From Vitellaria paradoxa (lineage: Eukaryota; Streptophyta; Magnoliopsida; Ericales; Sapotaceae): 64,000 bases of DNA. The stretch spans positions 21,065,894-21,129,893 of the forward strand of contig CM034240.1 in assembly GCA_019916065.1 (NCBI GenBank), read 5' to 3'. The position numbers and the translations under genes are program-made. The notes beneath the pieces are model-generated. The model made no database searches. It was not told where the DNA came from and saw only the letters and a program-made list of their open reading frames with translations. This document shows positions 30,701 through 60,829 of the stretch, in pieces. How positions within the stretch are numbered: position 1 is the stretch's first letter; each line of letters opens with the position of its first letter.

Positions 30701-33700
30701 TATCCACAACCACCAATTATTTCACTCCCACCAATTGTTCCAAACAACAACCAACCGCTACTCCCACTACCACTTTTTTCACTTATTACTGTTTCAATCA
30801 TATTTCCTGATTTTATTTTTGCAACATTTGCAAATACCAAAAAACTGACAACATAAACTAAAAGCAAAATATGAAAAGTGTAATCAAATGGCACCTACTT
30901 ATTGTGCAGCCAGGATTTCATTTTCCAAGGTGCTATCACAGTTGATGAGAGTATACATGCAGTGGCATTAAATAATGCCACATGCATCATTGAAATATTT
31001 ACCTCCTATCTAATAATACTCAGGTGACAATGAGTTCTTTAGAGATTTTTTGGTATTCAGATTTCTGTATGAGTCTTGAGAACATATAAACTCATTGCCT
31101 GGAGCAGTTTTTGGAGACATTATGAATGTTTAGTGAACATTTTTCTTCATATGCTATATGAGGAAGTGTTAGAAGAAGTTTCCTGTGATGGTCATGCTGC
31201 AACCTCTTATTCGTGTTTAGAAGATGAAAAATACCAGTTCAGGGATCTACTTGTTGATTTTTAATCTGTAACAGTACTCAAACAAATACTAGTGATGACT
31301 TCTTTAACATTAACATAATATGAATCTGTATGTGTTACGATTAAAGATTAAACTTTGCTTGGTATCTGAAGTTGTCCTACTATCAATATGCCTTTTTTCC
31401 TCAAATTATCCCCATGGATCAGAATGCAGATCAAAGATATGTTTCCTCAGATCAAGATCAAAATTCAATGCTGAAGGTGATTTGCAACCAGCGGGATCGG
31501 TTTAGGGCTCGATTACGAGAGACAGAAGAAGTATGTCATTTCAGCTTGGACAACATCTCATTATTGCTTTTGTTCTCTCTAGGATGAAAAAATAAGTATT
31601 TTTTCAGAATTCCTTTTCCTCGTTATTGCAGTTGTGCTTATTTTTTTTTTTTATTTTCAAATCATGGATTCAATTGTTTAATTTTCTGAATATTTACTGT
31701 ACTAGGAAGTAAGGCAATTGAAGGAGAAGATAGGAGTGCTGACAGTGGAACTGGAAAAAACAAAAGCTGATAATGTCAAACTTTATGGGAAGATCCGTTA
31801 TGTTCAGGATTACAATCATGAGAAAGTAGTTTCTAGAGGATCGAAGAAGGTTTTCTGTTGCTGCTACTACAGTTACTCTTCATATTGTTCTTGTAATTTC
31901 TTCTGCTCAAATTTCTCTCTTTCTCAGCATGCAGAAGACTTAGAAAGTGGCTTCAATTCAGATGTGGAATCCAAGTACAAGAAGATATATGAGGATGATA
32001 TAAATCCTTTCGCAGCATTTTCAAAAAAGGTTTCCACTTTCCTTGCTGAGCTTTTTGTCTAATTTGCAGGGTTCACTAAAAGTAAAGCTACGTGTAATAC
32101 TTGATTGAATCAAGGAAGAAAAAATGGGGTCCTATTTAGAGTATAAAAACCAATATAAATAATAAAGTTGCGCCCTCTCTAATAGTTTAAGCTTTTAGGT
32201 GAGATGATGGCTAACAATCTAACATGGTATTAGAGTAGGCAAAGGTCCTGAGTTTAAACAGTCACCCGATAGTCATTGTTGCACACATTGTTACTTGGAC
32301 TCTTCACTTTAGGGTGAAGTACCCGTGTCGACATGACATGGCACCGACATGGGTGTGGGATCCGTGTCGGATGTGGTGAAATTTCTTCAGATACGTTTGA
32401 TTTTAGAAGAGATAAAGGTTAGGTTTAAGAAATCTTTTAGATAACATGTGATTCCAAACTCTTTTGGTCTTTCATAATACAAAAAGATAAAAATTCCAAA
32501 TTAGCTTTTGTAATTTACTTCATGAATGAATTTTTATTTTTAAGTTCGTTTTTATTTTAATTATTATCATTGATTTATGATCCCATGTCATTACAGCACT
32601 AAAAAAAAAATATTTACATCTATCTCCTTATGTGTGTATGAATTACCCTTTGATGCACTCACTTATGAAAAGAGTAAAGATCAAGAAAGAAAACAGAGAG
32701 TTAGATTAAACTAAAGCTTTAGCTTAATTTCCCACACTCAATCCCAATACAAAGGAGGGAAAGATAATAGGAATTTTTTTAATCTTCAAATTCTGCCTTT
32801 CAAAGCTTACAAAAACCGCTTTTTTATAGGTTCTCTGCAGCCCCTAAACATTAATACTGACTGACCTTTAGACTTCGAAAAACAAACCCTTAGACTTTCC
32901 AACGGGCTCTTAAAAATCTGTTACACAAATAGACTTCAAAACAGACTTCTAAAAATCTGTAAAACAGACTCTTAGACTTTAAAACCAACTTCTAGAAAAA
33001 GAAAATCTGCTGTGCAGATTTTTAGACTTCCAAAAGCTGTAAAACAGACTCTTAAGACTTCAAAACCAACTTCTAGAAAAAGAAAATCTTCTGTGCAAAT
33101 TTTTAGACTACCAAAAGTTGTACTACTGGTCCGCATCAGTCCCTCCAGCTGAGAGGAAACTTGACCTCGAGTTGGTACCATCTTTGCTATGATATGGCAC
33201 CAAATGCTGGACGTTAGACACTTTGGAAGTCTTGATACGGTTGGAAGTTTCAGCTTGTACGCATTGTCATTAATTCTTTCTAGCACTTTACATGGTCCAA
33301 TCTTTCTTGCACTTAACTTGTTATATTCACCAGCTGGATAGCGATCTCTTGTTGGAATAGCCCAAACATAGTCCCTGACGTCAAATGCCACTCGCCTCCG
33401 ACCCTTATCAACATGTCTTTTATACTTTTGGTTGCTTTCTTCAATTTGACGCTGCACCTTCTCATGAATTTGCTTGATTTGTTCCACCAAATCTTCGGCT
33501 TTTATACTTAACTCAAGTGGTGATAGGAAGAGGAACAAGATCCAAAACATTATTTCGATTATGGTCATAAACAATCTCAATGGGACTCGTTGTTGTGCAG
33601 TTTTTGGATCTGTTAAAAGCAAATTCAGCATGAGGAAGAATTTGATCCCACTGCTTAGGGTTTCTTCCAACATGGCTGCGAATCAAATTTCCCAAGCTTC

Positions 33701-36700
33701 GATTGACAATCTTAGTTTGCCCATCAGTTTGAGGATGGTAAGTTGAACTGTAGTTGAGATCAGATCCTAGTTTCTTCCAAAGAGTCCTCCAAAAGTGACT
33801 AATGAACTTTCTATCTCGATCGGAAGTAATCGAATTTGGCACATCATGCAAACGGACAATTTCTTGGAAATATAATCGAGCAATCTGAGAAGCATCCATG
33901 GTCTTCCTACATGGTATAAAATGTGCCATTTTTGATAATCTATCAACAACAGCTAGAATCAAATCCATACCTCTTTGTGTTCGAAAGTCGGAGCACGAAA
34001 TCTATGCTAACATCGGTCCATGGAGCACTTGGAGTGGGCAGCAGCATATATAAACCCGCATTTGTAGAAACTCCCTTGGACACTTGACAAATATGACAAC
34101 GTTCAATCAACCTGTTGACATCTCTTTTTAGTCTTGGCCAAATGTAATTGGCTTCAATTAAAGCACGTGTTTTGTCTCTGCCAAAGTGCCCTTCATTATG
34201 TATGTGCCGAAGAATTTTCTCCCTCAAAGAACAATCCGGAATGCACAATTTGGCCCCCTTGAAAAGAAATCCAGCATGCAAATAAAAATCTACCCGTTTG
34301 CCTTCAACTACTTTTGCATGGAGTTTCCCAAAATATGGATTAGAAGTATACAAATCCTTGAAAGTATCAAACCCCACAACCTGAACATGCATAGTGGATA
34401 GCAAAAGAGACCTTCGACTTAAAGCATCAGCCACCTTATTTTGAACACCAGATTTGTGCTTTAAAGTGAAGGTAAACTGTTGTAGATATGCTGTTCATTT
34501 TCCATGTCGACGAGTCAAACTTTGTTGCCCATTTATGTACTTCAAAGCTTCATGGTCCGAATATAATACAAAGTCTCTTTGGATCAAATAATGCTCCTAG
34601 TGGTGGAGAGTTCGTACAATTGCATAAAATTCCACGTCATAGGTGGAATGATTCAGCCTTGCTCCACTCAATTTTTCGCTGTAAAATGCTACAGGTTTCC
34701 CTTCTTGGCTGAGTACTGCTCCAATGCCAACCTTAGAAGCATCACAATGGACCTCAAATACTTTATCAAAATCTGGTAGGACCAGAATAGGGGCTTCTGA
34801 CAGCTTCTTTTTGAGGATTTGAAAGCTTTTTTTAGCTTCAACAGTCCACTTAAACTGTCATTTCTTCATACAATCAGTAATAGGTGTTGCAAGTGAACTG
34901 AAATTCCTAATAAAACAATGATAAAATGAAGCTAAACCATGAAAACCACACACCTGATGAATGCTTGTTGGACTTGGCCAATTAACAATGGCTTGCATCT
35001 TGGATTGGTCCACTTGAATTCCTTGAGACGAGAGCTCATATCCCAAGAATAGGACTTTATCTGTCATAAAGCTGCATTTTTTCAAGTTGACATATAATTT
35101 TTCCTTCCGCAAAGTCATCAAAACAGCTCTCAAATGCTCTTGGTGCTTTGCAAAGAAGGACTATGCACAAGAATATCATCAAAACATACACTGCAAATTT
35201 TGTAATGTATGGTTGCAACACATGATTCATTATACGCATAAAAGTGCTTGGTGCATTTGATAGGCCAAACGGCATAACCAACCATTCGAGCAACCCTTCT
35301 CGGGTTTTGAAAGCCGTTTTCCACTCATCACCGAGACGAATTCTAATCTGGTTATTGCTACTCTTAAGGTCAAGTTTTGATTACACCTTGACCCCCGCAA
35401 GTTAATCAAGCATGTTATCCAATCGTGGAATAGGAAATCTGTATTTGATAGTAACTTTATTAATAGCTCTACTATCAATGCATATTCTCCAACTCCCATC
35501 CTTCTTTGGAACCAACAAGGCTAGTACGACACATGGACTTTTGCTTTCATGCACATATCCCATCTCCAATAGCTCATTAACCTGCCTATTAAGCTCTTCA
35601 TACTCTTTTGGACTCATTCCATAATTTGGCTTATTAGGCAAACTAGCTCCAGGCACAAGGTCAATGTGATATTGGATATCTCTCATAGGAGGTAGTCTAG
35701 GGGCAAATTTAGTGGCATGACATTAGAAAATTTATCTAAAAATGGTTGAGTAACTGCTGGACAGTTTGGCTCAAAAAACACCTCCTTACCCACCAAGACA
35801 TAACAACACCACTTTCTTCAAATTCCTCCACAAACTTGGCCATAGAGAGTAAATTAACGCCTTCCCCTTGCTTGGGTTTAGGTGTAACTTCCTCCTTAGA
35901 TGGGACTAGAATTATTTTCTTTTTATCTTTGTAAAAAGTGTATGTATTTTTGCAACCATCATGTAAGACTTTATTATCATACTGCCATAGCCTACCAAAT
36001 AAGATATGACAAGCATCCATTTCTACTACGTCACACCACACCTTGTCAAAATACCTATTACCAATAGATAAATTAACTAGACATCGCTTAGTAATAGGTA
36101 CCTCATTTCCTTTCTTGAACCAAGAAAGTTTGTAGGGCTGGGGGTGTTTTTCCACTGGTAGATTTAATTTTGTGACCGCCTCTTGGGAAATGATATTCTC
36201 ACAACTTTCACTATCTATAATCAGCTTACATACACGTCCAGCAACAATGCAAGTTATTTGAAACACATTATTGGGCAACCAATCCTTAGGATCTTCATGC
36301 CTCAGTGCTATTAAGGCTTTCCTCATCACCAGACATGGCCCCACATCACTTGTGACCATTGTTTCATCATCTTCTTCATCGTATATGGGTTCGTCCTCTT
36401 CTAAGTTATGTTCATCTTCCCCAGCTTCTTCTATAAAGAGTTGCTTTCCTTCACGGCTGTTTGCTTTCTAATATTCAGTAGATTTGTGTCTAGGTGCTCC
36501 GCATTTGAATCATTTAACTGCTGCCCCACGAAACAGTGATGCATCTTTGGAAGTTCCAGCACTTTGCTGCGTATGAGCAGCTGCACTGCTGCCCTTTTGT
36601 GGTGCCCCAACAGCGGTAGGGTTGTTGCTATTAGACCCTTGCAATTGGGCCCTATAAGCGACAACACAGTTGGAAGAAGACTAGTTGTTTGCAACTCTAT

Positions 36701-39700
36701 TTGAACCCCTTGTTTGCTGAGTTTCAGCAGCTTTAGCACACTGATAAGCTTGTGAAACACTCCATATATCTTATTGATTAAGTATATCTTGCAAGTTTAT
36801 TCACAGCCCTCTGATGTATCTTGCCACTTTTTGTTCTTCACTCTCATTTAACTCATTCCTAAGAACAAGTTCATAAAATTTTTCTGTGTAATCATCAACC
36901 GTCTTACCTCCTTGGTGACAATTCTGCAACCTTCGATAGACCAATTAGTTGTAATTGTAAGGAAGAAAAATCTCCCTCAGCTTCTTACGCATCTTTTCCC
37001 AATTAGTAATCTTAGGCTTCCCTTGTCTTTGGCGTGTCATGTTGAGTTGATTCCACCAAGCGGAAGCTCTTCCTCTCAATTTCACAGCAACTACTTTCAC
37101 TTTCTTATCTTCCGGCACATCTTTTAAGTCAAAAACCCTTTCTACGATTGATAGCCAATCACCATTTAAATCTCTAGCAAATTCTGGAATATCCACCTTG
37201 AATCCACCATCCCAACGCCTCTTAATAGCTGCTGGTCGGGGTGCGTTATTTGCACAAAAAGGATTTACATCCTCTTCATGATAATTCTCCTCCTCAGATT
37301 CAACACCATCTTGAGAAGAAAGTTGATGTTGCGCATTGCGCTAGGTTGGAGCTTCAACCTACCTTCTTAGATCTTCTATCATAGTGAGCAAATATTGCTG
37401 ATCAACTGCTGCGTTCTGATTGTGTTGAATAGCTGGTCTGCGAAGTGGATTTCTTCTTCTTGGCGGCATATTGCAACTCCAAAAAACGATCAAGTCCCCT
37501 GACAAATCCAAAGGATCAGAACCTGGCTCTGATATCAACTGATGCACTCACATATGAAAAAAGTAAAGATCAAGAAAGAAAATAGAGAGTTAGATTAAAC
37601 TAAAACTTTAGCTTAATCTTCCACACTCAATCCCAATAAAAGGGAGGGAAAGACGATAGGAATTTTTTTAATCTTCAAATTTTGCCTTTCAAAGCTTACA
37701 AAAATTGCTTTTTTATAGGTTCTCTGCAGCTCCTAAACATTAATACTGACTCACCTTTAGACTTTAAAAAACAGACCCTTAGACTTTCCAACGGACTCTT
37801 AAAAATCTGTTATACAAATAAACTTCAAAACAAACTCTTAAAAATCTGTAGAACAGACTCTTAGACTTCAAAACCAACTTCTAGACAAAGAAAATCTGCT
37901 GTGCAGATTTTTAGACTAGCAAAAGCTGTAAAACAGACTCTTAGACTTCAAAACCAACTTCTAGAAAAAGAAAATCTTCTGTGCAGATTTTTACACTACC
38001 AAAAGTTGTACTACTAGCTTGCGTCACCTTTATACAAATAATATTGTTTTTGTGCTAGATCTCCATACCTGTATCCAAAATTTGAGCACTTTTTCAACCG
38101 AGCCCTCGTACCCTAAGATACAGCTAATAGGCGAATTTGGCATTTGGATATGTATCTAAGTCCAACACTCATTCCTGACACCCATTTCCAGGTCTGAGCA
38201 ACATAGGTTGCACATGTTGGCCCTTGTCAGAATATTCAATCTGGCCACACTTGAGGAAGTGTGTTGAGAGTATAAAAACTAATATAAATAAAAAAGTTAC
38301 TCCATCCATAACAGCCTAAGCTTTTAGGTGAGGTAATGGCTAACAAGTCCAAAGTGTTCTGATTCTCCTGAATCCTTGTATCATTTCGAGTATAGAATGA
38401 ACAAGAAAGAAATGGTTGTGTATGTTCTGTTCCTTGTTATGTTGGGTAGATTCTATTATCTTTATTCTCAATTTGTGCATTTTTTAGCTCTAGGGTTTAA
38501 AAAGGTCTTTTCTGTAAGTATTTTATTGCCTGAGTCGCCCCATCTTTGAATAAATGATTTAATATCTCCTGTTTGAGTGTGTATATATATATAATTCCAA
38601 ACGTATGTAATATTCAAATATTGTGCTGAGGGATAACATGGGGAAAATGATGATTACATATTTATAATTTAAAACCTTTGACCAATAAAGTGGGAGGGCA
38701 GGGAGTATCTTGGATGGATGTGAGATCTGTTTTCTCTTGTAATAATATATGTTAGGAAGTATGTTTTCCATATTATTTTTATAAATCAGAACCCCACACC
38801 CCTCCTCCAAAATAAATAAATAAATAAAATAAAATAAAATAAAATAAAAAATAAAAAATTTGAGGGTAAAGGAACATTGTCCAATCTAGGTTGCTCCAAT
38901 TATCTATAGTAGGCATGTAAGGAAGTGATTTTGTTGTTCCAGGTTGCATAAAACGTCTTTTAAAATTGAGTCTGGAAAACTTTCAATTACTCGTAGGTTC
39001 GTGCAGAGGATCTATGTCTAACAGGACTGATTGTTCTTAGAGACAAATGTTTCCATTATCTGAGTAAAATTAGTAAACTCAGTTACTTGGTTGAAATTGA
39101 TTGGTGAGGCCTGATCGCATGGTTGTGGTTGGGGATGAGGCTTAGTTAAGGTTAGGGGTGACCATGCCCCCTTAGTTTTGGTATTTTGTCTATATACATA
39201 TGCTATATTTAATAAAAATAAATGATCCGTTAATAGTGTGGCCCTCCTACATAAATGAAAATTCTCAACTGTGCAAAAAAATTAATAAAGCACAAAAAAA
39301 TTTATTTTCATCTTTTTCAGTACAAACCCAAAAATATATATATATATATATCTCTCTCTTCCTACCCCCGAGATTTCTCATCCTCGTACACTTCATCTTC
39401 CAGTCATTTTCAACTTCTTTTGCTTCACTATTGCCTCTCTCTACAAACTCTCTCTCTAGCAACTATAGTACTGGAAGAAATTTTTTTGGTCCCGACGCAA
39501 GTAAATCTCGGATAAAAGGTTAGTGTTTTTTTTTTTTTTTTTGGCTTTTCACCTTTTCAATTCAAGTTGCTTCTGTTCTTCAGAAAGGGATTTATCCATC
39601 TGATCAAACAAAGCATTCCTCCAACCTTAGTGTACATCAATATTTTTACTAAAATTTTTTTGGCCCCCTTTGTCATAACATCCTAGCTTTGTCCCTAGTT

Positions 39701-42700
39701 GTGGTGTACATTGGACAATAACACAGCTTTCAGAAAGTCTTTTAAAAGGTAAACTGCTCTAGAAATTGAATTAAGGGCCTGTTTGGTGACACCAAAAGTC
39801 ACCAACTTTAACTAATTTTTGTACTTTCCTCCAATCAAATTTTCACTTATCACCTTTATATCACATCTTTTTACTTTTATTGTACTTTTTTGTCCCATTT
39901 TTTGTCAACCAAACAGGCCCTAAATATGAGCGGTAATATTTTCAATGAAGAATTTTTTTTTTATTAAAAAAAAAAAATGAAATTTGATGAGGTTTGCATG
40001 CAAAAGAGGATTTGGGGAGGAGTTCAACTCAACTCAACAAAAACCTTAGTCCTAAATGAGTTAGGGTTAGCTAAATAAATTTTCTTCTTCAATTCCTTTC
40101 TGTCATGGATTATATTTTTCATGAGATTATATGAATTTAGATTTTTCTTCACAATTTTAGCCAATGTAATTTTATATATGCATTTAGTGTTGGAGTCAGG
40201 GTTTTCAATAGGTGGGGTCGATAAGTGGCGAAGGCAGGATTCTTAATGGCGGAGCTAGGATTTTAACCTCTTTTTTCCCTGAGTACAATAGGTATGTCAA
40301 CAAATTAAAAATCAACTTCAAGATAGTTAGATGCAATTAGCAATTGAAAACTTTAAAAATAAAATAATTAAAGAAGTTTCTTCTACTATTCCAAATGTAT
40401 TTTGGAATAGGAAAAGTCACATAGTCACCCTTCCTTATATTAAAGATTTTCAAGAGTCAAAGATCAAAACAAAAGCTAGACCTATTCAAATGAATCAAGA
40501 ACTCTTGGATTATTGCAAAAAGAAAATCCAAGATTAATTAGACAAAAAACTAATAAGACTATCAAAATCTCCCTGGAGTTGTGCTGCTTTCTATGTAAAT
40601 AAAAACGCTAAAATAGAAAGAGGAACTCCAAGGCTAGTAATAAATTATAAACCTTTGAATGATGTTTTGCAATGGATAAAGTATCCAATTCCTAACAAGC
40701 AAGATCATGGTGGCTCTTGGCCCTGTATCTTCTCTTGGTATACCTTCTTGGCTCTGATACCAAGAGAAGCCCAGGAATAGCAAAATAGTAAATAAAGAAG
40801 GTAATAGATAAACGAATTCTATACCAAGATAATTTTTGTTTGTAATAATTCAATTGAAACATAAATGAATAATATAGATAACAAAATATAAATGATGCTA
40901 AATGAATTTTTATTAATGGGTACAAGAAATAATATAAAGACTTACTTGATAAAATTAATTAAACTTGATACATCTGAAGGTTGGAAGCTTGAGAGAGGAT
41001 ATAGGTGAGATTCAGACGGCAGAATGAATTTTGAGTCCGAATGCAATCCCCCTCTCAGACTTAACTTCCTTCCTTTTTACAATGGGTAAAAGGAATTAGG
41101 CTACAGTTTTTTCCGTGATGGATACTGATAAAGAGCCTGACTTCTTTTACAAGAAATGACATAAAGAAGACTTTTGATACAGACTTTTGACATAAAGTTT
41201 ATAAAAGTCATAAAGCAAAAGTTTTGGCATGTGATTGAATAGTAGTCTGAATGACTACTTTTGTCTTGATCTTTCATATCTTCCATGTGAATGTACTATG
41301 CCTTGATGAATTTTGCCGAGAGTTTGCTTCTGGAGCTATAATAGGGTTTGATAGCCTTTTGGACTTTTTATTGTTGATGATGACCATTGCTTTGTGTCTT
41401 TTTGTTCAGGGGCATGTGCTTGATAGCTTTGGCCAAAGACTTTTCCAGCTTGATAATGGTTTTGTTGATTTGCTGAGATTATTTCTTGTCTTTTGCCTTT
41501 GATTTTTTCTTCTCCTTGATTGGTGTTGATGGAGTAGGATTCTTGATAGGGGGAAGGATACCATAGTAGTCGTCTTCATTATCATTGTCAAGGTTGACTG
41601 AACTGAAGCTTTCTGCCGAATTGGAGTCCTCACTTGATTCTTGTTCTGATAATGATTCTAATGCAGCTAACAATTGCTGTTTTAATTCCTTTTTTGATGC
41701 TGTAGCTGCAAGTTTTGATATATTCTGGCTTTTCTGAAGAAGGAACTGAGGGGTTGTTGATGTTGTTAATGCTGGATGCTGATGGAAATATTTATCAATG
41801 GCTGTAGGAGTAACCCTGTCAATTTTAAATTGCTCCCACCATTTGACCTTAATTCTGCGGATTAGTGATGAAATGGTTGGTCCTTGATGAAAATATTCCC
41901 ATTGGATAATCCAGGCAAGAGAGAATTGTTGAAAGAAATAGAATAAATGAGGGAACTGATTCATTGGAAAATGAGATGGGATTTTGAATCGATCTTGATA
42001 AATCTGGAGGCCTTGATAAGCTTATTGAGGTAATATCTCTGGTACTGGTCCAAACATGTTCCACCATTCGATGAACCATACTAGAAGGTCTTGATGGAAT
42101 TTGTTGTGGAAGTAAAACATCCAAGAATGTCTGAATGTTTTATTTTGATGATAGAAGGTGTGGTACCAGGCTTTCTAGTAATCCCAGTAATTGTAGGTGG
42201 ATGGAACAAAATGCCGAGAAAATTGGCGGAATTGGTTTGGATGCCCTCCCCAGTCTTCAATAGTTAAGATTTTGATAATTTGGCATGTTGAATAGACTAT
42301 TTGGGTTTGGTCAAATTTATCTGGATAATATTTAAATGATACTGATTCAGTGTCAATCAGTATAAATTCGTAAAATTTTTGGGTTTTCATAGAATTTGAA
42401 GTTACAAAATGGTTATTTGGTAGAAATACGGTTTGAAGAAGATCATGGATAACTTGGTAATTGGGTGGATTTGTGAATAGGTTTTCATATTCTTGGACAA
42501 TCTGGTAATAAGATAGGTTTGTGGTTTAGGAAAATATTGTGATTTTGATGATAGGAAAATTTGAGAAATTGGTGTGGAGTTTGCCGATACCACCACATTT
42601 TTTTATGAATAAGATATGGGGCTAAGAGCCACCATAGATGACGAAGCGGGACGTGTAGCCACCTCTTTTGATGATCCAATTGCGACTGTTTGAGCAAAGC

Positions 42701-45700
42701 TCTTATTAGCCGCTTGGTTTAATATTTGTTGTTGTTGTTGTCTTTCTTCTTCAAGTAAGTAGGTATACCAGTCATTGGGAGATAAGGGAAGAACCCTGAG
42801 AATGGTAGTTGGTAAGGGTGTGGTTTGACTAGAAGATGATTTAATAGGTATCATGGCATATGATTCTTTTGTTATTGGTTGTGCAGTTGATAAAGATGGT
42901 TTAATAGGTTTAGGAGGCATGGTTTCCCTGCAAGAATTCACGGGTAAGGAAATCAGGGATGGAATTTACTTCTCCTTTGACGTATTCAATCTTATAATCA
43001 AAAATTGATAAAATAGCTTGCCATCTTGCAAAAATTTGTTTTGACGCAATATTTTGAACATCTTTTTGTAAGACATGCTTGGTAGCTTTGCAATCAATTC
43101 CAATTAAAAACTCTTGATTTAATAAATCACTTTGAAATTTTTGAATGCATAATACAATAGATAAAATTTCCTTTTTAATAGTGCTATAATTCCTTTGGGC
43201 ATTAGTCCATGTTCCTGATGTAAACCGGACTAATTGTTCTTGATGGTGACTAGGAAGACGTCGTTTTAAAATACCACCGTATCCTAGTTCTGATGCATCC
43301 GTTTCAACTATCTTATATGCTTGGGTATTTGCTATATGTAAACATGGAAGAGACTTAAGGTGTTGCTTAAATTGTTTGATAATTAGGGTATGTTGAGAAG
43401 ACCATGGAGGAGGATTTTTCTCGAGTCTTTCTCTTAAAGGACTAGCAATAATACTAAGTTTTTGGTAATAGTCTGAAATATAATTGAGACTCCCTAAAAA
43501 CCTCTGAAGTTATTTTTTATCTTTAATTTCATCAAGAAATTTACTTGCAAATTCTAAAACTCTTTCAATAGGAGTAATAGTTCCTTGATCAATATAATGT
43601 CCAAGAAATCTTATCCTTGTTTGAAAAAGTTTAATTTTTTATCGAGAAAACACTAAACCATTTTTCTTTATAATATAAAGGAAAGTGTTTAAATGTTTCC
43701 AATGAGATTGAATGTTATTTGAGAAGATTAATATATCATCAATGTATACTATTGAGAAATCAGAATATGGATTAAAAATATCATTCATAATTTTTTGGAA
43801 TTCACTTGGAGCATTTTTTAATCCAAATGGCATGACATTCCATTCATATGGTCCAAAAGGGGCAGTGAATGCAGTTTTATATTTATCTGATTCAGAGATC
43901 TGGATTTGCCAAAATCCAAATTTTAAATCAAATTTTGAGTATATTTTAGCATGTACAAGCCTTTGAAGGAGATCTTGCTTGTTAGGGATTGGATACCTTA
44001 TCCATTGCAAAACATCATTCAAAGGTTTGTAATTTATTACTAGCCTTGGAGTTCCTCTTTCTATTTCAGCGTTTTTATTTACATAGAAAGTAGCACAACT
44101 CCAGGGAGATTTAGATGGTCTTATTAGTTTTTTGTCTAATAAATCTTGGATTTTGTTTTTGCAATAATCCAAGAGTTCTTGATTCATTTGGATAGGTCTA
44201 GCTTTTGTTTTGATCTTTGACTTTTGAAAATCTTTAATATAAGGAAGGGTGACTATGTGACTTTTCCTATTCGAAAATGCATTTGGAATAGTAGAAGAAA
44301 CTTCTTTAATTATTTTATTTTTAAAATTTTCAATTGCTAATTGCATCTGACTATCTTGAAGTCGATTTTTAATTTGTTGACATACCTTTTCTTGTTTTAG
44401 GAGCATTAGATGTTTTTCTTTTGATATGATTTTTGAAATATTATTTATTTGGATTTTTTCTACAGCTATATCTTTTAGAATATTCAAATCTTTGATATTT
44501 GGAGGATTAAGAAATTCAAATATTGTTTCTTGACCAAATATATTTGTAGAATTTCCTTTAGGGGATACCGACATAGGTTCAATAAGATTTAAGAAGGGTG
44601 TTCCTAATATTACTTCTCTATTTAAATCTTTTACTAGGATAAATAGAGTCTTTATACAAATATTTTGATTACATACATGAGTTTTTGTTAATTTATATTT
44701 GACTTTTAATGGCATACCATTAGCAGATGATAGCCTCTCTTTGTTGGTTCAAAATATTTTATGGGTACTAATCCTTCTTGTATGCAGTTAAGATCAGCAC
44801 CAGAGTTAAAAAGTGCAGTAGTATTTATAGTATATTCTTTATTTATTACAATTTTTAATTTTACATTCCATTTTTGATAGGATATTTGGGTTAATATGAA
44901 AATATCATCATTTTTATACTCTTTATCTTGAGTCAGGAGAGTTTGTTGATTAGAAGTTGAAGTTATAATATTATTAGGATTTTGATTTTTTAGAATTAAA
45001 ACTTGGTTTGTTAATTCTCGAATTTCTGATTTTGATATTCCTAATTCATGTTTTAGAGTTCTAATCTCTTTTTTGATTTCTTTTATTTCAAGTTTAATGT
45101 CTTCTATTGGAATTTTTTTGTAATTTTTGAGGTTGTTTAGCCTTTTTTAATATTGAATCAAGGTCATAACAATTTTCTATAACCTTTTCTCTATTCTTTT
45201 TAGTTTGTTGAAGGTTTTCTTTTAATTTTAATAAATAATTTCTTTTTAAATGAGGATCTTCTATATCTTCAATCATATTCATGATTAGTTCTTGTTCTCT
45301 AGTAATAACATTACAATAACAGTTTTGTTTAATAGTTATACTACTAGATGAATCTTCAGATATTTCTATATTAGATTCGGTTGATGATATAATATTGTCT
45401 ACTTCAAAATCATCTTGAGAATTTGATTTTTCATGTTCTGATTCAGAATTATTTATCATCAATATTTTTCTAATTATTTTTTGAGATATTCATCAATATC
45501 TAAGGAATTTATTTTACCTTTTAATGGACAATTATTTTTATAATGTCATATTTTTCCACATTTATAACATGTTAGAGGTATTTTCTGATTATTAATAGGC
45601 TTCTTCGATTTTTTCTTATGTTGAAATTGGTTTGGTTCATTTTTATATAGTTTTTTGTAAAAATTATCTTGACTAGGTTGTCTTCTTTTTTTATAAGCAT

Positions 45701-48700
45701 TTGCAACCATTGTCATTTCTTGTAATTTGTTAATTTTTTGATAATCTGTTAGTCCATCTAAATTCCATTTATAAATTCCAGTACCTTTGAAAAATTGAGT
45801 TGGTTCAACTAATTCTTTATATTGTTAATCTGGGAAAGATGGTCTCGGATAATAATTTTTTATTTGTCTTGTATTATGTTTATTATGATTCCATTTGGCC
45901 ATATAAGATAGTTGAAACGGATGCATCAGAACTAGGATACGGTGGTATTTTAAAACGACGTCTTCCTAGTTACCATCAAGAACAATTAGTCCGGTTTACA
46001 TCAGGAACATGGACTAATGCCCAAAGGAATTATAGCACTATTAAAAAGGAAATTTTATCTATTGTATTATGCATTCAAAAATTTCAAAGTGATTTATTAA
46101 ATCAAGAGTTTTTAATTGGAATTGATTGCAAAGCTACCAAGCATGTCTTACAAAAAGATGTTCAAAATATTGCATCAAAACAAATTTTTGCAAGATGGCA
46201 AGCTATTTTATCAATTTTTGATTATAAGATTGAATACGTCAAAGGAGAAGTAAATTCCATCCCTGATTTCCTTACCCGTGAATTCTTGCAGGGAAACCAT
46301 GCCTCCTAAACCTATTAAACCATCTTTATCAACTGCACAACCAATAACAAAAGAATCATATGCCATGATACCTATTAAATCATCTTCTAGTCAAACCACA
46401 CCCTTACCAACTACCATTCTCAGGGTTCTTCCCTTATCTCCCAATGACTGGTATACCTACTTACTTGAAGAAGAAAGACAACAACAACAACAAATATTAA
46501 ACCAAGCGGCTAATAAGAGCTTTGCTCAAACAGTCGCAATTGGATCATCAAAAGAGGTGGCTACACGTCCCGCTTCGTCATCTATGGTGGCTCTTGGCCC
46601 CATATCTTATTTATAAAAAAATGTGGTGGTATCGGCAAACTCCACACCAATTTCTCAAATTTTCCTATCATCAAAATCACAATATTTTCCTAAACCACAA
46701 ACCTATCTTATTACCAGATTGTCCAAGAATATGAAAACCTATTCACAAATCCACCCAATTACCAAGTTATCCATGATCTTCTTCAAACTGTATTTCTACC
46801 AAATAACCATTTTGTAACTTCAAATTCTATGAAAACCCAAAAATTTTACGAATTTATACTGATTGACACTGAATCAGTATCATTTAAATATTATCCAGAT
46901 AAATTTGACCAAACCCAAATAGTCTATTCAACATGCCAAATTATCAAAATCTTAACTATTGAAGACTGGGGAGGGCATCCAAACCAATTCCGCCAATTTT
47001 CTCGGCATTTTGTTCCATCCACCTACAATTACTGGGATTACTAGAAAGCCTGGTACCACACCTTCTATCATCAAAATAAAACATTCAGACATTCTTGGAT
47101 GTTTTACTTCCACAACAAATTCCATCAAGACCTTCTAGTATGGTTCATCGAATGGTGGAACATGTTTGGACCAGTACCAGAGATATTACCTCAATAAGCT
47201 TATCAAGGCCTCCAGATTTATCAAGATCGATTCAAAATCCCATCTCATTTTCCAATGAATCAGTTCCCTCATTTATTCTATTTCTTTCAACAATTCTCTC
47301 TTGCCTGGATTATCCAATGGGAATATTTTCATCAAGGACCAACCATTTCATCACTAATCCGCAGAATTAAGGTCAAATGGTGGGAGCAATTTAAAATTGA
47401 CAGGGTTACTCCTACAGCCATTGATAAATATTTCCATCAGCATCCAGCATTAACAACATCAACAACCCCTCAGTTCCTTCTTCAGAAAAGCCAGAATATA
47501 TCAAAACCTGCATGCTTGAGAATAGGTGACAAGTGATGATGCAACTGAACTTGTCAAATTAGAATCTTTCAAAGACGGACGAATGGAACGAGACTCAATG
47601 ATATCGACAGAATTGTAGTAAGACATGCAACATATAATTTGTAAGAAAAATTGTTCAATATATGCAAGAACGTTTCTATTATGCACTAGTAGTGAGGACT
47701 CGTGCAATTGAATAATTTCACGGAAGAACAACTTGGACATTAGACTCAAAGAACTCCCAATTGATGAGGTCAACAAATAAAACTCTTGAAATGTTTAAAT
47801 AATAGTCCCTAAACAAGTAACAATCACCAATGATAAAATCTATGCAATCCTGACGATCATTGTTCATGATATCCTCAAATAAACCAACAAAATTTAGACA
47901 AGATGATGGTGTTTTCAAACATAACCAAGTGGACTAGAGCGTTGTTTGCAAGCCTATTCAGTCGAGTGGAACTGGCATTCGACAGTTGAAACTGCATAAT
48001 GAAGCGTTGATGGAAAAATGGCTTTGGAGATTTGTGCATGAAGATACTAGTCTTTGGAAAAGAGTGATTGAGATCAAATATGGTAAGGAGATAGGAGGTT
48101 GGTCTACAGCAAAAGGTCACTTTTCTTTTGGTATTAGTCTATGGAAATACATTAGAAGGAGTTGGCCTAATTTTGACAGATGCGTATCTTGGAAGGTGGG
48201 AAAGGGAGATAGGATATTGTTTTGGAAACACAAATGGTTGGAGATTGGCTGTCTTTCAGAGTTATTCCTTGAGAAATATGCCACTGCAATTGATAAGAAT
48301 GCTTTGGTTTCAAACTACAACACAGGTTATGGTTCGAATAGAGTTTGGAATGTGCAACTGAGAAGCAGTATGAATGATTGGGAATTGGACAGTTTTTGGT
48401 TACTTTTGGAGCTTCTTTATTCATTACAGATTGAGGACACAGCAGATGTTATCTTTTCAAAAAAAAAAGGACACAGCAGATGCTATGATTTGGAAGCAGT
48501 CAAAGCATAATACTTTCACCGTGAAGTCCTTTTATCTATCCTTACAGGGAGGGGAGAAGGATGTTTTTCCTTGGATGAAGTTATGGAAAACTCCTGCTCC
48601 TGCAAGGGTCATCTTCTTCTCTTGGTGTGCTGCGAGAGGTAAAATCTTGACTATGGATAATCTAAAACTTAGGGATTAGTCATTGGTTAATAGATGTCCT

Positions 48701-50102
48701 TTATGTCACAGACAACAGGAATCAATCGATTATCTGTTCATTCATTGCACTTGGTCTGTTGAACTATGAAGTCTAACCTTATCATATTTTGGTGTCCAAA
48801 TGTGTTTTACTGAAAATTTTAAAAGTTTTCTTTTAGCTTGGTGGGGACAACCACTGGGAAGGAGGAAGAAGAAGAAGATATGGAATTTGGCTCCCTTTTG
48901 TCTATTTTGGATGATTTGGAAGGAGCGCAACAGGCGGATATTTGATAACATAGAGAGTTATTTTGCATACCAAAAGTTTATTCCTTTCTTGTTTGTACAG
49001 TTGGGTAGAAGAGGGGAAAGAGATTGACCTTTGTTCCTTTCTATATTTTATTGCTAGCATGCAGTGAGTAGGAGAAAATTGTATTTTTGTAGCTTTCTAT
49101 TAGCGTCTTTCTAATGCTTATAATAAATCTTATTTATCTTTTTAAAACAAAAAAAATTTAGACAAGATGATGGTGGAGCCAATTCAACCGCTTTAGGCAT
49201 ATTTTGAGGATTTGGTGACTTTTCGTGATCAAATGTCGAGAGAGGAGAATCAATAAAAGAATCACAAGTGTCAACAGAAATAATAGGAGCGCTAGGTTTA
49301 GGGGATGGACGTTATAACTCAATGGTTCGTATAGTGCATTTTGACTCTGACATAGACTCATAAGACTAAAATTCATAATATTTTTCAATCTCTAAGGGTT
49401 TGGAATAAGCTTCATTTAAGGTCTTATGAGTGTATCGCTAAACTTTCTCACGGATGCAAGGCCTTAACCCAAGGACAAATCCAAGGACAAATCTACTAAT
49501 GGCACAAGGCTCATTTCAAAAATTAGACTACTTCTGAAGTGTTTTAAATTGATCAAAATACTCATCAACAGAAAAATACTCATGTTTAAGACGCATTAAC
49601 TAAGATCATGTCTTATCTATAAAACTTTTAGGAACAAATCGATCGCTTAAAATTTATTTCATCAAGGCCTATCGAATAACAGGCCTATGGTATAACTCAA
49701 CTGTTTGCCAATACTCTCTAGCATAATTGGTCAATTTTGTTTTAACCAGACGAATATATTGGTCATTAGATAGATCGTAATAGTAAAAAATGTATTCAAT
49801 ATCCTCTACCCAATCAAGAAACAAATGAGGATCGATAGTGCCACTAAGATAAGGATCTTTGTCATAAGTTTGATGAATAGAACAAAGTCTTACTTTATTG
49901 CTCCAATATGGTTGATGTTCAAAATTCACGGTAAAAGGACAGAGACAAATTTTTTTTTAAATGCTGATATTAATGAAAACTGAAAAAGAGAGTAATAAAA
50001 ATATAAAATCCTAATATGCGTAAAATAGGAATGACGAATCTAATAAATGAAATTCAACAAATAATTTAGGCAAGTAATGGGTGAGTGATTTTTTTCTTTT
50101 TT

Positions 50103-50137
<35 letters not shown>

Positions 50138-53100
50138 GGGCAACAATTAACTAAATTCAAAAGGGAACTGGGAATTAGGATAAATAAAACAAATGGACAA
50201 GGTTTAAGTTCAAATTTATACAATTCACACTGTCATATGATATAAGCATTTATCATAATTAACAATGAAAGCATTGTACCTTAATCCAAACTTTTGCTCC
50301 AAACTATGTGAACTGCCCACTTTTGGAACATTCGAATAAGTAGTCGGCTGTCCTGTTGACTTGGAATCTGCCAAGAATGAACCGAGAGGTGTTCTGGAGT
50401 ATTCTGGACTTTGCGCCAGTTCGCCAAAAAAGTCACTGGAGGTTGCTAGCCGATAGCCGAAAAAATCAATGGAGGTCGCCAGGGTCACCAGCGAGTTCGC
50501 TAAAGGTAGGTGGTGCTGCTAGAGTATTCTAGACTTTGTCGGGATTCGCCAGAAAAGTTGTCGGACTTTATCAACCGGTCGCCAGAGTCACTAGCGAGTT
50601 CGTTGGAGGTAGGTGGTGCCACTGGTGGGATTCACCGGAGTTAAATATTACTAAAAATGCATGAAAGCATACTCGAAGGGCTCTGCCGCCGTTGCCCTAC
50701 GCTGCTACTACTGTTTTTTTTTTTCTTTTTTTGGGATTGTTTTGACTGTTCAATAGTAATAGAGATTGAAACAGTTTATAGGATCTTTTCTTTGATACGA
50801 AAGTTGATGTAGGATCGTAAAGAAGAAGAAAGAATCAAAGAAGGAGGAGGAGGAGGAGAAAGAGGAGGAGTGAGAGGGTAGCAGCTGTAACAATCAAAAT
50901 ATCATTCAATCTATAATATTCTATTAATCCTATTTAAGGTTTAAATAATAAATTTTAAAATTCATGGGTCGAAACACAGAAGGCCCTTAATAAAATAAAC
51001 TCAATACTAATAAGGACCAAAACAAATGGGTACAAATAACCTCTAATAATACAAACTCATTACTAATAAAGCCTAAGACAAATGGGTTCAAATAATAAAT
51101 AAAATAATAATAAAATAGAAATAAATTTGTAAACTGATGTCCTCATTACTCCGCTCTCTCTCTTACCTGTGCATCTCTAGGTCCACGTTGAAATAACTAA
51201 CTCATCTTAAATGACTTTCTTGCAACTTCTCTTCTATTGATGCCTTCTCAATTTTCTTTTGAATATATTTTTTTTTATCCTATCTTTTCTTATAGTAGTG
51301 CACATTTATGTTAGCATCCTCATTTCTGTTACATTCATCTTATGAGTATTGTTTTTTAATGGGGCAACACTCCATACCTTAAAAGTATATTTGGTCTTGT
51401 AATTATCCAATAAAAATGGGGTCACATGAAACACAATTGGCACTTCTCTATTTCAACCACTAAGCTTGAACTCGATTGATAATATCCTCTTTAATCTCTC
51501 CATTTGCATAAATAATATCCAAGTCATAAAAAATCTTACTTTTGTCACTTCTTAGTCCTCAATTTTCACTTAATCCATTTCAACCACCATAGGCGCTTCT
51601 TAGTCCTCATTTGTAGTTATAATTTTACCAAATTCACAATGCATATATTGTTCTAGTCCTACTTACTCTGAATTGTTTGAACTCTAAAGTGTGCCTTCAA
51701 AGTAATATGGAGTAAAAAATAATGTGGAATAAGGCTGTGATAATAGACATGATTGCAAAGAACCACAAGATCTTAATGAAGATTATCCTATCTTTTCTTA
51801 TACTAGTGCACATTTATGCTAGCATCCTCATTTCTGCTACATTCATCTTATGAGTATTGTTTTTTAACAGGGCAACACTCCATACCTTAAAAGTATATTT
51901 GGTCTTGTAATTATCCAATAAAATTATTCTTGGGTCACATGAAACACAATTGGCATATCTCTATTTCAACCACTAAGCTTGAACTCGATTGATAATATCC
52001 TCTTCAATCTCTCCATTTGCATAAATAATATCCAATATATAAAAAATAATTACTTTTGGCACTTCTTAGTCCTCAATTTTCACTTAATCCATTTCAACCA
52101 CCATAGGTGCTTCTTAGTCCTCATTTGTAGTTATAATTTTACCGAATTCACAATGCATATATTATTCTAGTCCTACTTACTCTGAATTGTTTGAACTCTA
52201 AAGTGTGCCTTCAAAGTAATATGGGGTAAAAAATAATGTGGAATAAGGCTGTGATAATGGACATGATTGCAAAAAACCACATGATCTTAACGAAGAACCT
52301 ACTAATAGGATCAATATATTTGTGTATGATTTAAATCAATGCGTGGAAATGGATATATATCTTACTATATCCTTTTGTATTTGTATCCAAATTGAAGAAT
52401 TTCATCATGGCTACGAGTATGCATAAAGTTATATATCCAATCAACATTACTTGTTGATAATTGAAGGTTACTATTAAATAGCTTCATATAATTGTTTGGC
52501 CTATTTCCTAACAACATAAGTTTTTAGGCAATTAGTGACTTAGTATGGTATCAGATCTCTAGTTCAAGAGATCCAGGGCATTAGAAATTGTTCTACATTA
52601 GTCCATGAGAAAAGTTATTTCTCCTACATAAGAGATGGACTTTCCTCCTCCCAACATTTGGGTTTTAAGATTGAGACCCTTCCTCTTATACGGTGTTAGG
52701 CTCCTTGACATGGTATCAAAGCGAGTTTTCAATGCAACCTCACCATAGTCCACACCATGCCTATATCAATACGGGCAAGCGTGAGAGGGCTGTTAGAAAC
52801 TATCCCATATTAGTCCATGGGAAAGTTATTTCTTCCATATAAGGGGTGGGCGTCCTTCGTCTCAACACTTAGGTTTTAAGGTTCAATGATGTAGCGCGTG
52901 CTAATAGGGAGCGCAGATCGAATACCTTCCATACAAACAATGAATTTCTGAACAAATAAACCTCACAACAGGCAGGCAAACTATTGCTAGGGTTACAAAA
53001 ATCACTCAAAACAATAATAAAAATAAAGTGTAGAACACTTAATTTAATTAATCATCAAAAGATCCCAATATTCATAGGTTTATAATGCTTAAATAGAATC

Positions 53101-56100
53101 CCTAACTAGAAAATAAGAAACTAAACTTCGTAAAATACGAAAACTAAATTATTTCCATAGTTGGAGTGTTCTTAACTTGATACCTAAGCTAAAATAAACT
53201 ATTCTAGAAATATATTTAAAAACAAGTAAATCTAAATTAATCCTAATAGCTAAATATAATTTTTGATGAGTATCCAAAACAAATTAAGAAATTTCCATAG
53301 TAGAATCTTATTACCATTTTCATCTTGCATCATTCTCCCCTTGTTGGAAAGAATTTGTCCTCTCATTCGGATCTTCATACTCTACTGATTTTTTAGTATG
53401 GAGATATCATTAAACCACAAATGAAAATAAATTTTCACCAAAATATTGACTGAAGTCTTAAAAGTTTTTTTCAATTGCATAACCAATGAATTTTCACAAA
53501 ATCCATTTAAGAATGGATCATTATAAGAAGATATCTTGATTGATTGTCTTCTATTAGCAGTTTCAATTTAAAAAAAAAAAAAAAAAAAATCTTCTTCAAC
53601 TCATAAAAATCTTCCTTTGCTACTCTTCCTTCTTAAATTGATCTTCATCACAAAATATATTTTTATGTGACCTATTATTTGAATCGATATAAGTAGAAAT
53701 TGGCAATATATCATTATCATATTTATCTTATATTGGAGGTAAATTTCAATCTACTTGAGGTTCAAGAACTTTGACATAATTTTTTGAAGCTTCAACCCTT
53801 TGAGGTTCTTCATAAAAAATTGGTTGTCTCCTCCGATCAATAACTGAATCAGAAATAATTGTTGATGTGAATGGAAAATTCTCTGGTTGTAGACTTTCCT
53901 GAATGTCAATATTTAAACTAGATTCCCACTGATAGTTGTCAACATCCACAGTAAGCCATTCCCGACTGGGAAGATACTCAGGAACAGGCTCTTCGTGGGG
54001 ATTGTCAAAATCCCAACTCAGAGTACCATAGTCTTCAGATTGAAGAGATGGACTGCGATCTCGACGTTCGACTTTGGCTATCAAGACAACCATTTGAGTT
54101 ATTAACACTTCGACCTATTATGCCAATTAAGCTATGTCATTCCGTTCACGAACAGCGTTCAGAGGTGCATTCCAATCATGTCCTCTCCTATGAGGCATGA
54201 TGCGGGTTTGTTAGCATAGCTCTGATACCAATTGAAGTAGCGCGTGATAATAGGGAGTGCTGATCAAATACCTTCCCCACAAATAATGAATTTTTGAATA
54301 GACAGAATTCATAGTAAGCAGGCAAATTATTGCTAAAGTTACAAAAACCACTCAGAACAATAAGGAATAAAATGTAGAGCACTCAATTTAATTAATCATC
54401 AAAAGCTCCCAAAATCCATAGGTTTACAATGCTTGCATAGAATCCTTAACTAGAAAATAAGAAACTGAATTACATAAAATACGGAAACTAAATTATTTCT
54501 ATAGTTCGAATGTTATTAACTTGATTCCTAAGGTAAAATAAACTATTCTAGAAACATATCTGAAAATAAGTAACTAATCTAAATTAATCTTAATAGCTAA
54601 ATATAATTTTTGACGAGTATCCAAAACAAAGTAGGAAACTCTCATATTTAAGTCTTATTACCATTTTCATCCAGCATCATTGAGGCCCTTCATCTTATGT
54701 ATTGTTGAGCTTATTGACATAGTATCAAAAAGGATTTTCAATTGGACCTCACTATAGTCTGTGTTGTGCTTTATATCCATGCGGGCCAATGTGAGGGGTT
54801 GTTAGAAATTGCCCCACATCAGCCCATGAAAAAAGTTATTTCGCCCATGTAAGCGATGGGCTTCCCTCACCTTGACACCTAGTTTTTAAGGTTTTGAGAC
54901 TCTTCCTCTTATGTATTGTTTGGTTCTTGACACACGGGTTCAACTCTTGTTATTAATGTTTATTTTCCATTTGCTCTTGTGCATTGTAATCAATTTGTGC
55001 CATGCATTTTGTTTGGTTTAATTCATTTGTCTCTACTCCACGCGCAAGTTGTGGTCATAAGTGAGAGGGTGTGGTAAAATAGTTTGATATACATTATTGG
55101 GTCCTTTTTGTAATAGTTTAAACTCTTAGGACAATTGATGACTTAACAATTACTGCAAATTTGTACTTCAAAACTTGTGGAATGCAAATGTAACACAAAG
55201 TAGATATAGGATAATGCGGCCACATCTACTGCAGGTTACGTCCAAGGTTTACAAATATGGTAAGAGGCGTTGAAGTCCCTCAGGATACCTTCCCAACTTA
55301 TATTGGTAAAGATTTTGAGTAATGCATGAGATTTCTTCCTATGACAGGGTGAAAAGCAATTTTTGATATCGTGATAATTCAATCTAGTTTTCTATTCCTA
55401 ACATGTGGAAATTGGACAAACCTAACAAGTAGGCAGCCTAGCATATAACGGTGTAATAGGTTGTGTTTTCTACATTTCCTGTGAATCTTACAGGAATGTT
55501 GTTTTACTGTCTCTGAACATTGCATGTTTACAGTCGGCACATCATCCATAAATTGCTTGCTATTACCTTATTGCTTCTTCCCCCCCCCCCCCTCTAAAAA
55601 GAGAGAGAGAGAGAGAGAGGTGTAATAAGTTCTTGACGCCTGTAATGTACTAATATTTGTCACTTGTGGATCACATTCTTACTCAATTGATCAACTTATG
55701 ATCAGGAAAGAGATCAAAGGTACAAAGAGTTGGGTTTAAGAGAGAAAATTACTCTTAGCAGCGGACGTTTTCTTCTTGGCAACAAGTAAGTTTGACGAAC
55801 TTCAATAGAATTTTCTAAATTAATTTGTTTGTTTTGTTAATTATCCATTTTTTTTCTTTTGAACATTTTTTGATATTTGAATTGAATTGCCTCTCTCGTA
55901 GTCCATAATCGTAGACTCTCCTAGTAGATATTGTCCGTTTTGTGCCCCCGTAGGGATTTCTCGTAAGGATTTTCACGCACGGCTTTAAAACGCGTTGTGT
56001 TAAGGAGAGAGGAGTTGGATGCTTATAAGGTACCGCAGTTCTCGACTCCTTTCTAACGTGGGATCGTTTTTGGTATTATCAGTGCTCCCAGTTGAGGACT

Positions 56101-59465: not shown

Positions 59466-59798
59466 GTGGCAAGTATACCTGCCTGTTACGCAGGCGACCC
59501 GGGTTCCATCGTTTTTTTTTATTTTTTTTTTATTTTTTATTGTTCTTTTAAATCTTTATTTTAGCCAAATCATTTTTTTAATTTTTTGTAAATTCTTCAT
59601 TGAACTCGAATTCGAATCCGAAACTAAAAGCAAAACCACGAAATTGCAATTGGTGGTTCAATTTGTGTCTGGATATCATCGTCTTGGTCATTCTTTGTGG
59701 AGTCTGTTCGCTTCCCTCCTCGGCTCCTTTTCTACGACCCCCCCCCCCAAAAAAAAAAAGACTGATATCTACTTACTGGAACAAGGGTGCAAAGGACA

Positions 59799-59957
59799 TG
59801 CTTGAATTCTCATCTTCCGCCGCCGCCGCCGCCAACGCTTCAGCATCACCGGCCGCAGCAGAGGTGGCGGTGGGGGGCAACGCAGGCGAATCCGCAGCCG
59901 TGGTTCATCGCCGGCCTCTGTAATCCCGGCAAGAAGTACTATGGCACCCGCCATAAC
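59799..59957 (+). pseudogene. First exon of a peptidyl-tRNA hydrolase family gene, frameshifted as printed
   Basis: The segment PWFIAGLCNPGKKYYGTRHN (ending 59957, before a GT) matches the N-terminal catalytic region of plant peptidyl-tRNA hydrolase, which frees peptidyl-tRNAs in organelles. The catalytic His of TRHN is present, and the usual GLGNPG reads GLCNPG. The only nearby ATG (59799) opens MLEFSSSAAAAANASAS, a plausible start of an organelle-targeting region, in a different frame. The two frames could meet at the six-G run near 59872-59877, so a one-base change or sequencing error is likely there. A (CT)n tract at 59968-59990 follows the donor. Later exons were not found in the window. 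Labelled pseudogene because of the frame break, but it could be a real exon. Confidence 0.68.
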
Positions 59958-60829
59958 GTCCCTATCTCTCTCTCTCTCTCTCTCTCTCTCACAGTTTATT
60001 ATTTAGATTTTTCAATTCAATTTTTTCTTGCTGATTGGGTCTTAATGATGATCAGTTTAAACTTTTCTTTTATTCTTTTTTTTTTTAAGTCCAACTGCTT
60101 CCCCTGATAATGCACAGCTCAGCCGCGCAATCTCCTGGGGCATTTTGACACCCTTTCTGGATAAGTAAATGTTAGTTACATATTGGACTTTTTTCGACCA
60201 AAATTTAAGCAAATGCTTATGTTTTCCGTACGTACGTAGTTAAAAAAAAAATGCAATGCTATTTGGATCAGTAACATACTCTTGTCCAAACTCCTTAAAT
60301 TTTATTCTAAAACTCTGTATCCGCATTCTTAAACTTCATAATCTTCTACCCATCTAAATTCTAATATAATAAAACGTCCACTTGTTTAAATCTAAACATA
60401 ACAAAATAAAATAAAAAGTTTTAAAAATTCTTAAACCTTATTCTAGGTGATAAAAAAATCTTATAAGAACTTTTAAACTCTATTTTAGATAATAAAAAAC
60501 TTTATAAAACATCTAAAAATATAAAATAGTTCATTCTAGAAACATATTCAATATTAAGCTATCAATTTCGTCGGGTAAAATATCTAAATATAATAATATT
60601 TTAGTAATCTTAGACTGTATAATATTCTACTAATTAATCTCAATTTTTTTAACTCATTTTAAATGTTAAACTCTTAATTTTCATCTCAAACTCATATTCA
60701 ACATGTGTTGCATTTATATCATGAAAATTGAACTCTTATAAAACATTAAAACAAGAGAATAAATATAAAAAAATAAAATTTAACAAGTGAAAATAGAAAG
60801 AGCGAACAAGCGAGAAAACTAAATGATGC
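59958..60829. other. Probable intron 1 of the hydrolase gene
   Basis: AT-rich sequence after the GT at 59958. It begins with a (CT)n microsatellite and has no recognised coding motif up to the LINE that starts near 60830. Confidence 0.4.

Follow-up and report, generated by a model that had tools for sequence, protein, structure and literature searches.

Can a decayed endogenous pararetrovirus, part of which was later copied in inverted orientation inside a host intron, serve as a source of small RNAs? This question is raised by a 64,000-nt stretch of Vitellaria paradoxa DNA (contig CM034240.1, positions 21,065,894 to 21,129,893; hereafter the window), in which an initial annotation had pointed to a long, nearly perfect viral inverted repeat within an intron of the gene for CASP, a Golgi protein. 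On balance, we lean towards a positive answer: the CASP intron holds a decayed florendovirus-like insert with an inverted, probably late, copy of one of its segments, and the predicted hairpin would likely be diced into 21–24-nt RNAs.

The inverted repeat consists of two arms, which carry the RNase H end and most of the second viral open reading frame (ORF2):

41707–43319, minus strand: left arm, the parental copy, with the viral sense on this strand and virus continuous on both sides
45900–47512, plus strand: right arm, copied from the left in inverted orientation and newly joined at either end; neither border follows the parental viral order

As initially described, the arms pair without a single gap over 1,613 nt each (paired coordinates sum to 89219) and carry few substitutions: six of the 1,613 positions differ (0.37%), and all six differences are transitions. 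A scan of the window for inverted repeats that pair over 150 nt or more without a gap, which repeats carrying indels may escape, yielded three pairs, among which the arm pair is by far the longest; the other two measure 420 nt (96% identity) and 248 nt (72%). An assembly artefact, with the second arm created by a fold-back or a mis-join, is hardly credible as the origin of this structure. A fold-back would mirror the flank too and yield identical arms, whereas here the arms differ at six sites, a unique loop lies between them and the flanks are different; with flanks and loop differing, a fold-back error was dropped as the source of the arm.

The proposed RNase H and ORF2 content was also recovered. 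RNase H is recognized in the arms by Pfam (PF17919/PF17917, E values of 2e-22 to 6e-16), and the pieces tried from the ORF2 region gave no match above the Pfam cut-off. Read in three frames, the 1,213 nt of ORF2 within the arms contain 40 stop positions, of which 39 are common to both copies and one is private to the left arm. The arms therefore do share their ORF breaks, as is expected for near-identical copies of a broken gene.

The borders of the arms differ in kind. Viral sequence runs through both ends of the left arm: the RNase H ORF (42910–43509) reads across the border at 43319, and an ORF2 piece (41479–42021) reads across the border at 41707. The right arm adjoins coat-protein sequence in the opposite orientation at 45899/45900, and beyond 47512/47513 the flank does not continue ORF2 and has no match elsewhere in the viral block. 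Since virus is continuous at both ends of the left arm and new joins lie at both ends of the right arm, the left arm is the parental copy and the right arm the derived one; the loop still runs on into the left arm, so recombination between the two has caused no net flip. Where the right arm ends on its outer side, 14 nt (47510–47523) are identical to a stretch of a CASP exon (26533–26546; blastn-short E value of 0.011), a match that is probably due to chance and possibly marks a repair template.

The initial annotation was correct about the arms, but the viral block is larger (40287–47512) and contains a further inverted repeat that had been missed, made of reverse transcriptase (RT) sequence and crossing the arm pair:

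40287–40706, plus strand: third viral piece, an RT fragment; an inverted copy of 43971–44390 at 96%, with 17 differences over 420 nt
43971–44390, minus strand: counterpart of that fragment within the loop; a stem between the two would cross that of the arms

The differences in this RT pair (4.05% of sites, 12 of the 17 being transitions) are spread evenly over the codon positions (5, 6 and 6), so they look like the product of neutral decay. Polarity was read from 121 alignments with those 120 RT relatives, out of 2,555, that were listed: among the 12 amino-acid-changing differences, the derived state falls in the fragment seven times (two of these less clear-cut) and in the loop copy five times, so both copies decayed. 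Divergence between the arms is roughly a tenth of that in the RT pair (0.37% vs. 4.05%, Fisher p = 5e-8), the Poisson range of the six arm differences being 2.2–13.1; two arm differences in the RNase H part that were tested for polarity gave no direction. The low divergence of the arms and the broken ORF2 present in both indicate that the second arm originated, or was last homogenised, long after viral integration and decay, in agreement with the initial proposal that the inversion followed the decay of the virus. The virus would have integrated as several rearranged pieces and decayed, after which an inverted copy of the arm would have been made, probably while a break at the right-hand end of the viral block was being repaired. 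At substitution rates of 6.5e-9 to 1.3e-8 per site per year, the viral pieces are estimated at 1.6–3.2 million years, the arms at 0.14–0.29 million years and a retrotransposon in the same intron at ~2.6–5.2 million years. The order of events is firmer than these dates, and viral diversity predating integration could inflate the 4% value.

Gene conversion between older arms would leave the same signal of youth as late copying, and both arms may have arrived with the original rearranged integration and been kept alike in this way. The block itself, with its +/-/+ orientation and an apparent 17-nt filler where two of its pieces meet, is compatible with such an arrival. Conversion must, however, have acted over the whole 1,613 bp and reached both exact ends while sparing the RT repeat, which stays 4% diverged, and the loop is unflipped relative to the left arm, so nothing points to net crossing-over between the two arms. 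We consider conversion doubtful, and a late copy is the simpler account.

Around and between the arms, the rest of the block comprises the following:

43320–45899, minus strand: loop between the arms, 2,580 nt; coat-protein end with a zinc knuckle, protease and RT
41479–42920, minus strand: parental ORF2 region, 1,442 nt; broken by stops and frame changes, and overlapping the end of ORF1 in another frame
40707–40723, plus strand: putative filler, 17 nt identical to the right-arm ORF2 stretch 46584–46600
40751–40762, minus strand: candidate tRNA-Met primer site, a 12-nt motif match at the position expected after a florendovirus ORF2

The 2.58-kb size given initially for the spacer was right, but the spacer proved to be viral as well. 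Read on the minus strand from 45899 downwards, the order is coat protein, protease, RT, RNase H, ORF2 and the tRNA-Met-type site. Within the loop, the coat-protein end matches DUF7746 (PF24925, E value of 6.8e-13), while the zinc knuckle and the outermost 75 nt (45825–45899) were placed in the coat protein by visual inspection alone; the protease match is weak (RVP, PF00077, E value of 0.0047, below the Pfam cut-off) and the RT match is strong (RVT_1, PF00078, E value of 9.6e-28). The parental RNase H is matched by RT_RNaseH (E value of 2.4e-22). ORF2 starts at 42920, in another frame and shortly ahead of the end of ORF1, and its longest reading pieces comprise 180 aa (extending beyond the left arm), 120 aa and 116 aa. 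The front of ORF1, with the movement protein, is missing, and the parental copy ends at 45899 within the coat-protein part. For the primer site at 40751–40762 we used a pattern that we take to be the tRNA-Met motif; a second motif of this type lies at 54219–54230 on the minus strand, away from the viral block.

Gene order, the frame of ORF2 and the tRNA-Met-type site support the assignment of the virus as florendovirus-like (Caulimoviridae), the type named initially. The likeness to the described florendoviruses extends over domain order, an ORF2 in another frame, the tRNA-Met site, for which a consensus is mentioned, and an intronic location (PMC4241990). An intact florendovirus second-ORF protein, characterized by a lack of homologues elsewhere, is given there as 45–58 kDa, which the size of the broken ORF2 region fits only approximately. 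The block in the CASP intron differs in being truncated and rearranged; the word “inverted” occurs 0 times in the main text of that study. A search with a 369-aa RT piece found 2,555 relatives, and the best-scoring showed 63% identity; the 120 listed relatives include no near-identical virus protein and carry no virus-genus labels, and the florendovirus label comes from the gene plan. The 180-aa ORF2 piece returned 95 candidates, none of which scored as a relative, and the 18 pattern matches in IMG/VR contained no confirmed relative of the RT piece. A plasmid collection, an unlikely place for such sequence, gave no match to the arm.

The 17-nt segment at 40707–40723 sits where two oppositely oriented viral pieces join. 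It matches the right arm with a blastn-short E value of 2.7e-4 and the left arm at 16 of 17 positions, and we read it as filler, a putative repair scar. TA repeats of at least four units are absent from 39801–48200. A candidate target-site duplication at the ends of the viral block was rejected, as its best match of 8 nt was equalled in 164 of 500 shuffles.

The host gene is represented in the window by these features:

32030–55705, plus strand: CASP intron, GT-AG, 23,676 bp, holding the whole viral block
31706–32029, plus strand: CASP coding exons upstream of the intron, with the CASP_C domain and a short intron within
55706–55786, plus strand: CASP coding exon downstream of the intron, matching CASP

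The initial placement of the arms within a CASP intron was thus confirmed, a GT-AG intron lying between coding exons whose identity is given by PF08172 (E value of 1.4e-18). The Actinidia CASP protein aligns to the window piecewise from residue 176 to residue 682 of 684. Its first 175 residues gave no tblastn match in the window at E values up to 1, so the CASP promoter appears to lie outside the window. Among the best 120 of 769 relatives, the top named ones come from Ilex, Camellia, Actinidia and Davidia at ~79–87%. The Ilex protein that scores highest does so with the help of a duplicated internal stretch, and exon by exon it agrees with the window at only ~49–98%, which sets that Ilex species apart from the host.

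Other elements share this intron. A Ty3-type retrotransposon (32651–38015, minus strand) with gag and integrase zinc-binding domains is bounded by long terminal repeats of ~477 nt (32651–33127 and 37540–38015) that are 93.3% identical, and 51275–52296 holds a ~510-bp tandem duplication at ~94%. About 425 bp past the right arm, open pieces at 47938–49027 on the plus strand resemble, by eye, the end of a LINE reverse transcriptase; the piece at 47938–48510 has no Pfam match. At ~59700–60000 on the plus strand lie reading pieces that resemble the start of a plant peptidyl-tRNA hydrolase, presumably the gene that follows CASP.

Both arms would lie within a single CASP pre-mRNA, as the initial annotation had reasoned, and near end-to-end pairing between them is predicted. 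In the minimum free energy fold of the plus strand (the CASP sense) over 41707–47512, 1,611 of the 1,613 arm positions are paired, 1,333 of them in one unbroken run, and four of the six arm differences read as G-U pairs on this strand. Because the order of the repeats (a-b-a'-b') crosses, the RT pair and the arm pair cannot both form in one nested fold. When the crossing RT repeat was included, the predicted fold contained 1,610 arm pairs and 0 RT-register pairs, so the arm stem wins.

A single TATA-like match was found between ORF2 and the primer site, on the minus strand; if used, it would point leftward, away from the arms. A viral promoter was accordingly dropped as the driver of the hairpin, and CASP read-through is its simplest source. 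Transcription of CASP would cross both arms in the sense direction within the intron. As a further 8.2 kb separate the second arm from the intron acceptor, the stem could form ahead of splicing, and the pre-mRNA would then fold into a double strand of ~1.6 kb. By precedent from other plants, such a stem is likely to be diced by DCL2/3/4 into 21–24-nt small RNAs, which would silence or methylate matching viral copies, including their own locus.

Several observations weigh against this scenario. The 2.58-kb loop falls between two rice cases, namely loops of ~0.3 kb, for which the authors inferred that a hairpin RNA is probable, and a repeat with a ~6.2 kb loop, which by their inference probably cannot form one (PMC7649420). 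Florendovirus small RNAs from eight species showed no consistent pattern along the genome, with no inverted repeat mentioned in the main text of that report (PMC4241990); small RNAs alone would therefore not prove a hairpin at the CASP locus. Splicing and degradation may remove the intron before Dicer acts on it in the nucleus. Perfect inverted-repeat transgenes become methylated and silence themselves (PMC9263138), and in maize, read-through transcripts of Mu killer were found in plants failing to silence (PMC3440606). Finally, the youth of the arms does not imply selection.

It is possible that the insert is an inert relic, giving no hairpin small RNAs and only the usual heterochromatic 24-nt ones while the intron RNA is spliced and degraded. 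Endogenous caulimovirids are described as methylated and in silent chromatin in the few angiosperms studied (PMC10377300), and the patternless florendovirus small RNAs (PMC4241990), as well as the inferred inability of the long-loop rice repeat to form a hairpin (PMC7649420), given a loop of 2,580 nt here, fit such a state. The near-perfect pairing predicted over 1.6 kb argues otherwise, as do comparable tomato and soybean loci reported to be active (PMC10377300).

An effect mainly in cis, in which methylation drawn to the CASP intron would alter the splicing, polyadenylation or level of CASP, is unlikely. Inverted-repeat transgenes are reported to be invariably methylated (PMC9263138), and intron-derived small interfering RNAs (siRNAs) that methylate host genes have been described (Chen 2011, cited in PMC5545994). 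Against this stands the piecewise match of the CASP exons in the window to relatives, and spread of methylation to the CASP promoter is improbable since the promoter appears to lie outside the window. Still less probable is a young immune gene kept by selection, in which an inverted viral copy in the intron of a broadly needed Golgi gene would let CASP transcription yield antiviral double-stranded RNA at no protein cost. A selected antiviral role is unsupported, as no target virus was found and the long loop is a reason for doubt.

Dicing of the CASP-intron hairpin has precedents that match it in part. In tomato, rearranged endogenous pararetroviruses in inverted-repeat form are associated with dense 22-nt siRNAs (Valli et al. 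2023, as cited in the review PMC10377300), and in tomato hybrids small-RNA changes were concentrated on endogenous pararetroviruses and on 22-nt RNAs made by DCL2 (PMC9124383). The present locus resembles the tomato “transcriptionally competent siRNA areas” described in that review: it is a rearranged endogenous pararetrovirus, an inverted-repeat conformation is present at 40287–47512, and a hairpin RNA is expected. It is florendovirus-like and lies inside a host intron, with genus and intron position stated here for the present locus alone, and its small RNAs are predicted. In soybean, long inverted repeats that stem from caulimovirids and transposons feed DCL2 to give 22-nt siRNAs (Jia et al. 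2020, as cited in PMC10377300); the likeness is a long inverted repeat derived from an endogenous pararetrovirus, and the difference is that DCL2-dependent 22-nt small RNAs are reported there but only predicted at the CASP locus.

The hairpin is predicted within an intron of a host protein-coding gene (32030–55705, with 1,611 predicted pairs), the single transcript following from the gene model. Chen et al. reportedly described “sirtrons” in 2011, hairpins within host-gene introns. In rice, 21–24-nt RNAs arise from two hairpin precursors located in introns (PMC3661559). The CASP locus shares with these and with the sirtrons a hairpin inside the intron of a host gene, but both of those are reported with small-RNA reads, and the two rice precursors total 1.1 and 1.7 kb compared with a 1.6-kb stem plus a 2.6-kb viral loop here. 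Maize Mu killer likewise repeats part of a mobile element in inverted orientation, and a hairpin is proposed to arise there from flanking-gene read-through; it differs in deriving from a transposon, in trans silencing that was shown genetically and in being driven by a flanking gene rather than lying in an intron (PMC3440606). As to position, c. 9% of the grapevine florendovirus loci overlap genes, 99% of these in introns (PMC4241990).

That an inverted-repeat pararetrovirus can give rise to siRNAs is in itself known from reports on tomato and soybean. The fresh element seems to be that a location inside a host intron goes together with evidence for an inverted form arising after viral decay; the titles and abstract openings listed in searches of open-licence literature name no intronic florendovirus inverted repeat, although one may still be in print. 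Should some accessions carry the second arm and others lack it, they would offer a clean natural experiment in which arm-derived small RNAs should differ. If the small RNAs are confirmed, the locus would show that a pararetrovirus insert can acquire its inverted form long after it integrated, through copying inside the decayed sequence and not only in the course of the original rearranged integration, and that a host intron can serve as its transcription unit. Both the late inverted copy and the intron as a unit would bear on how heritable RNA-based immunity starts in plants.

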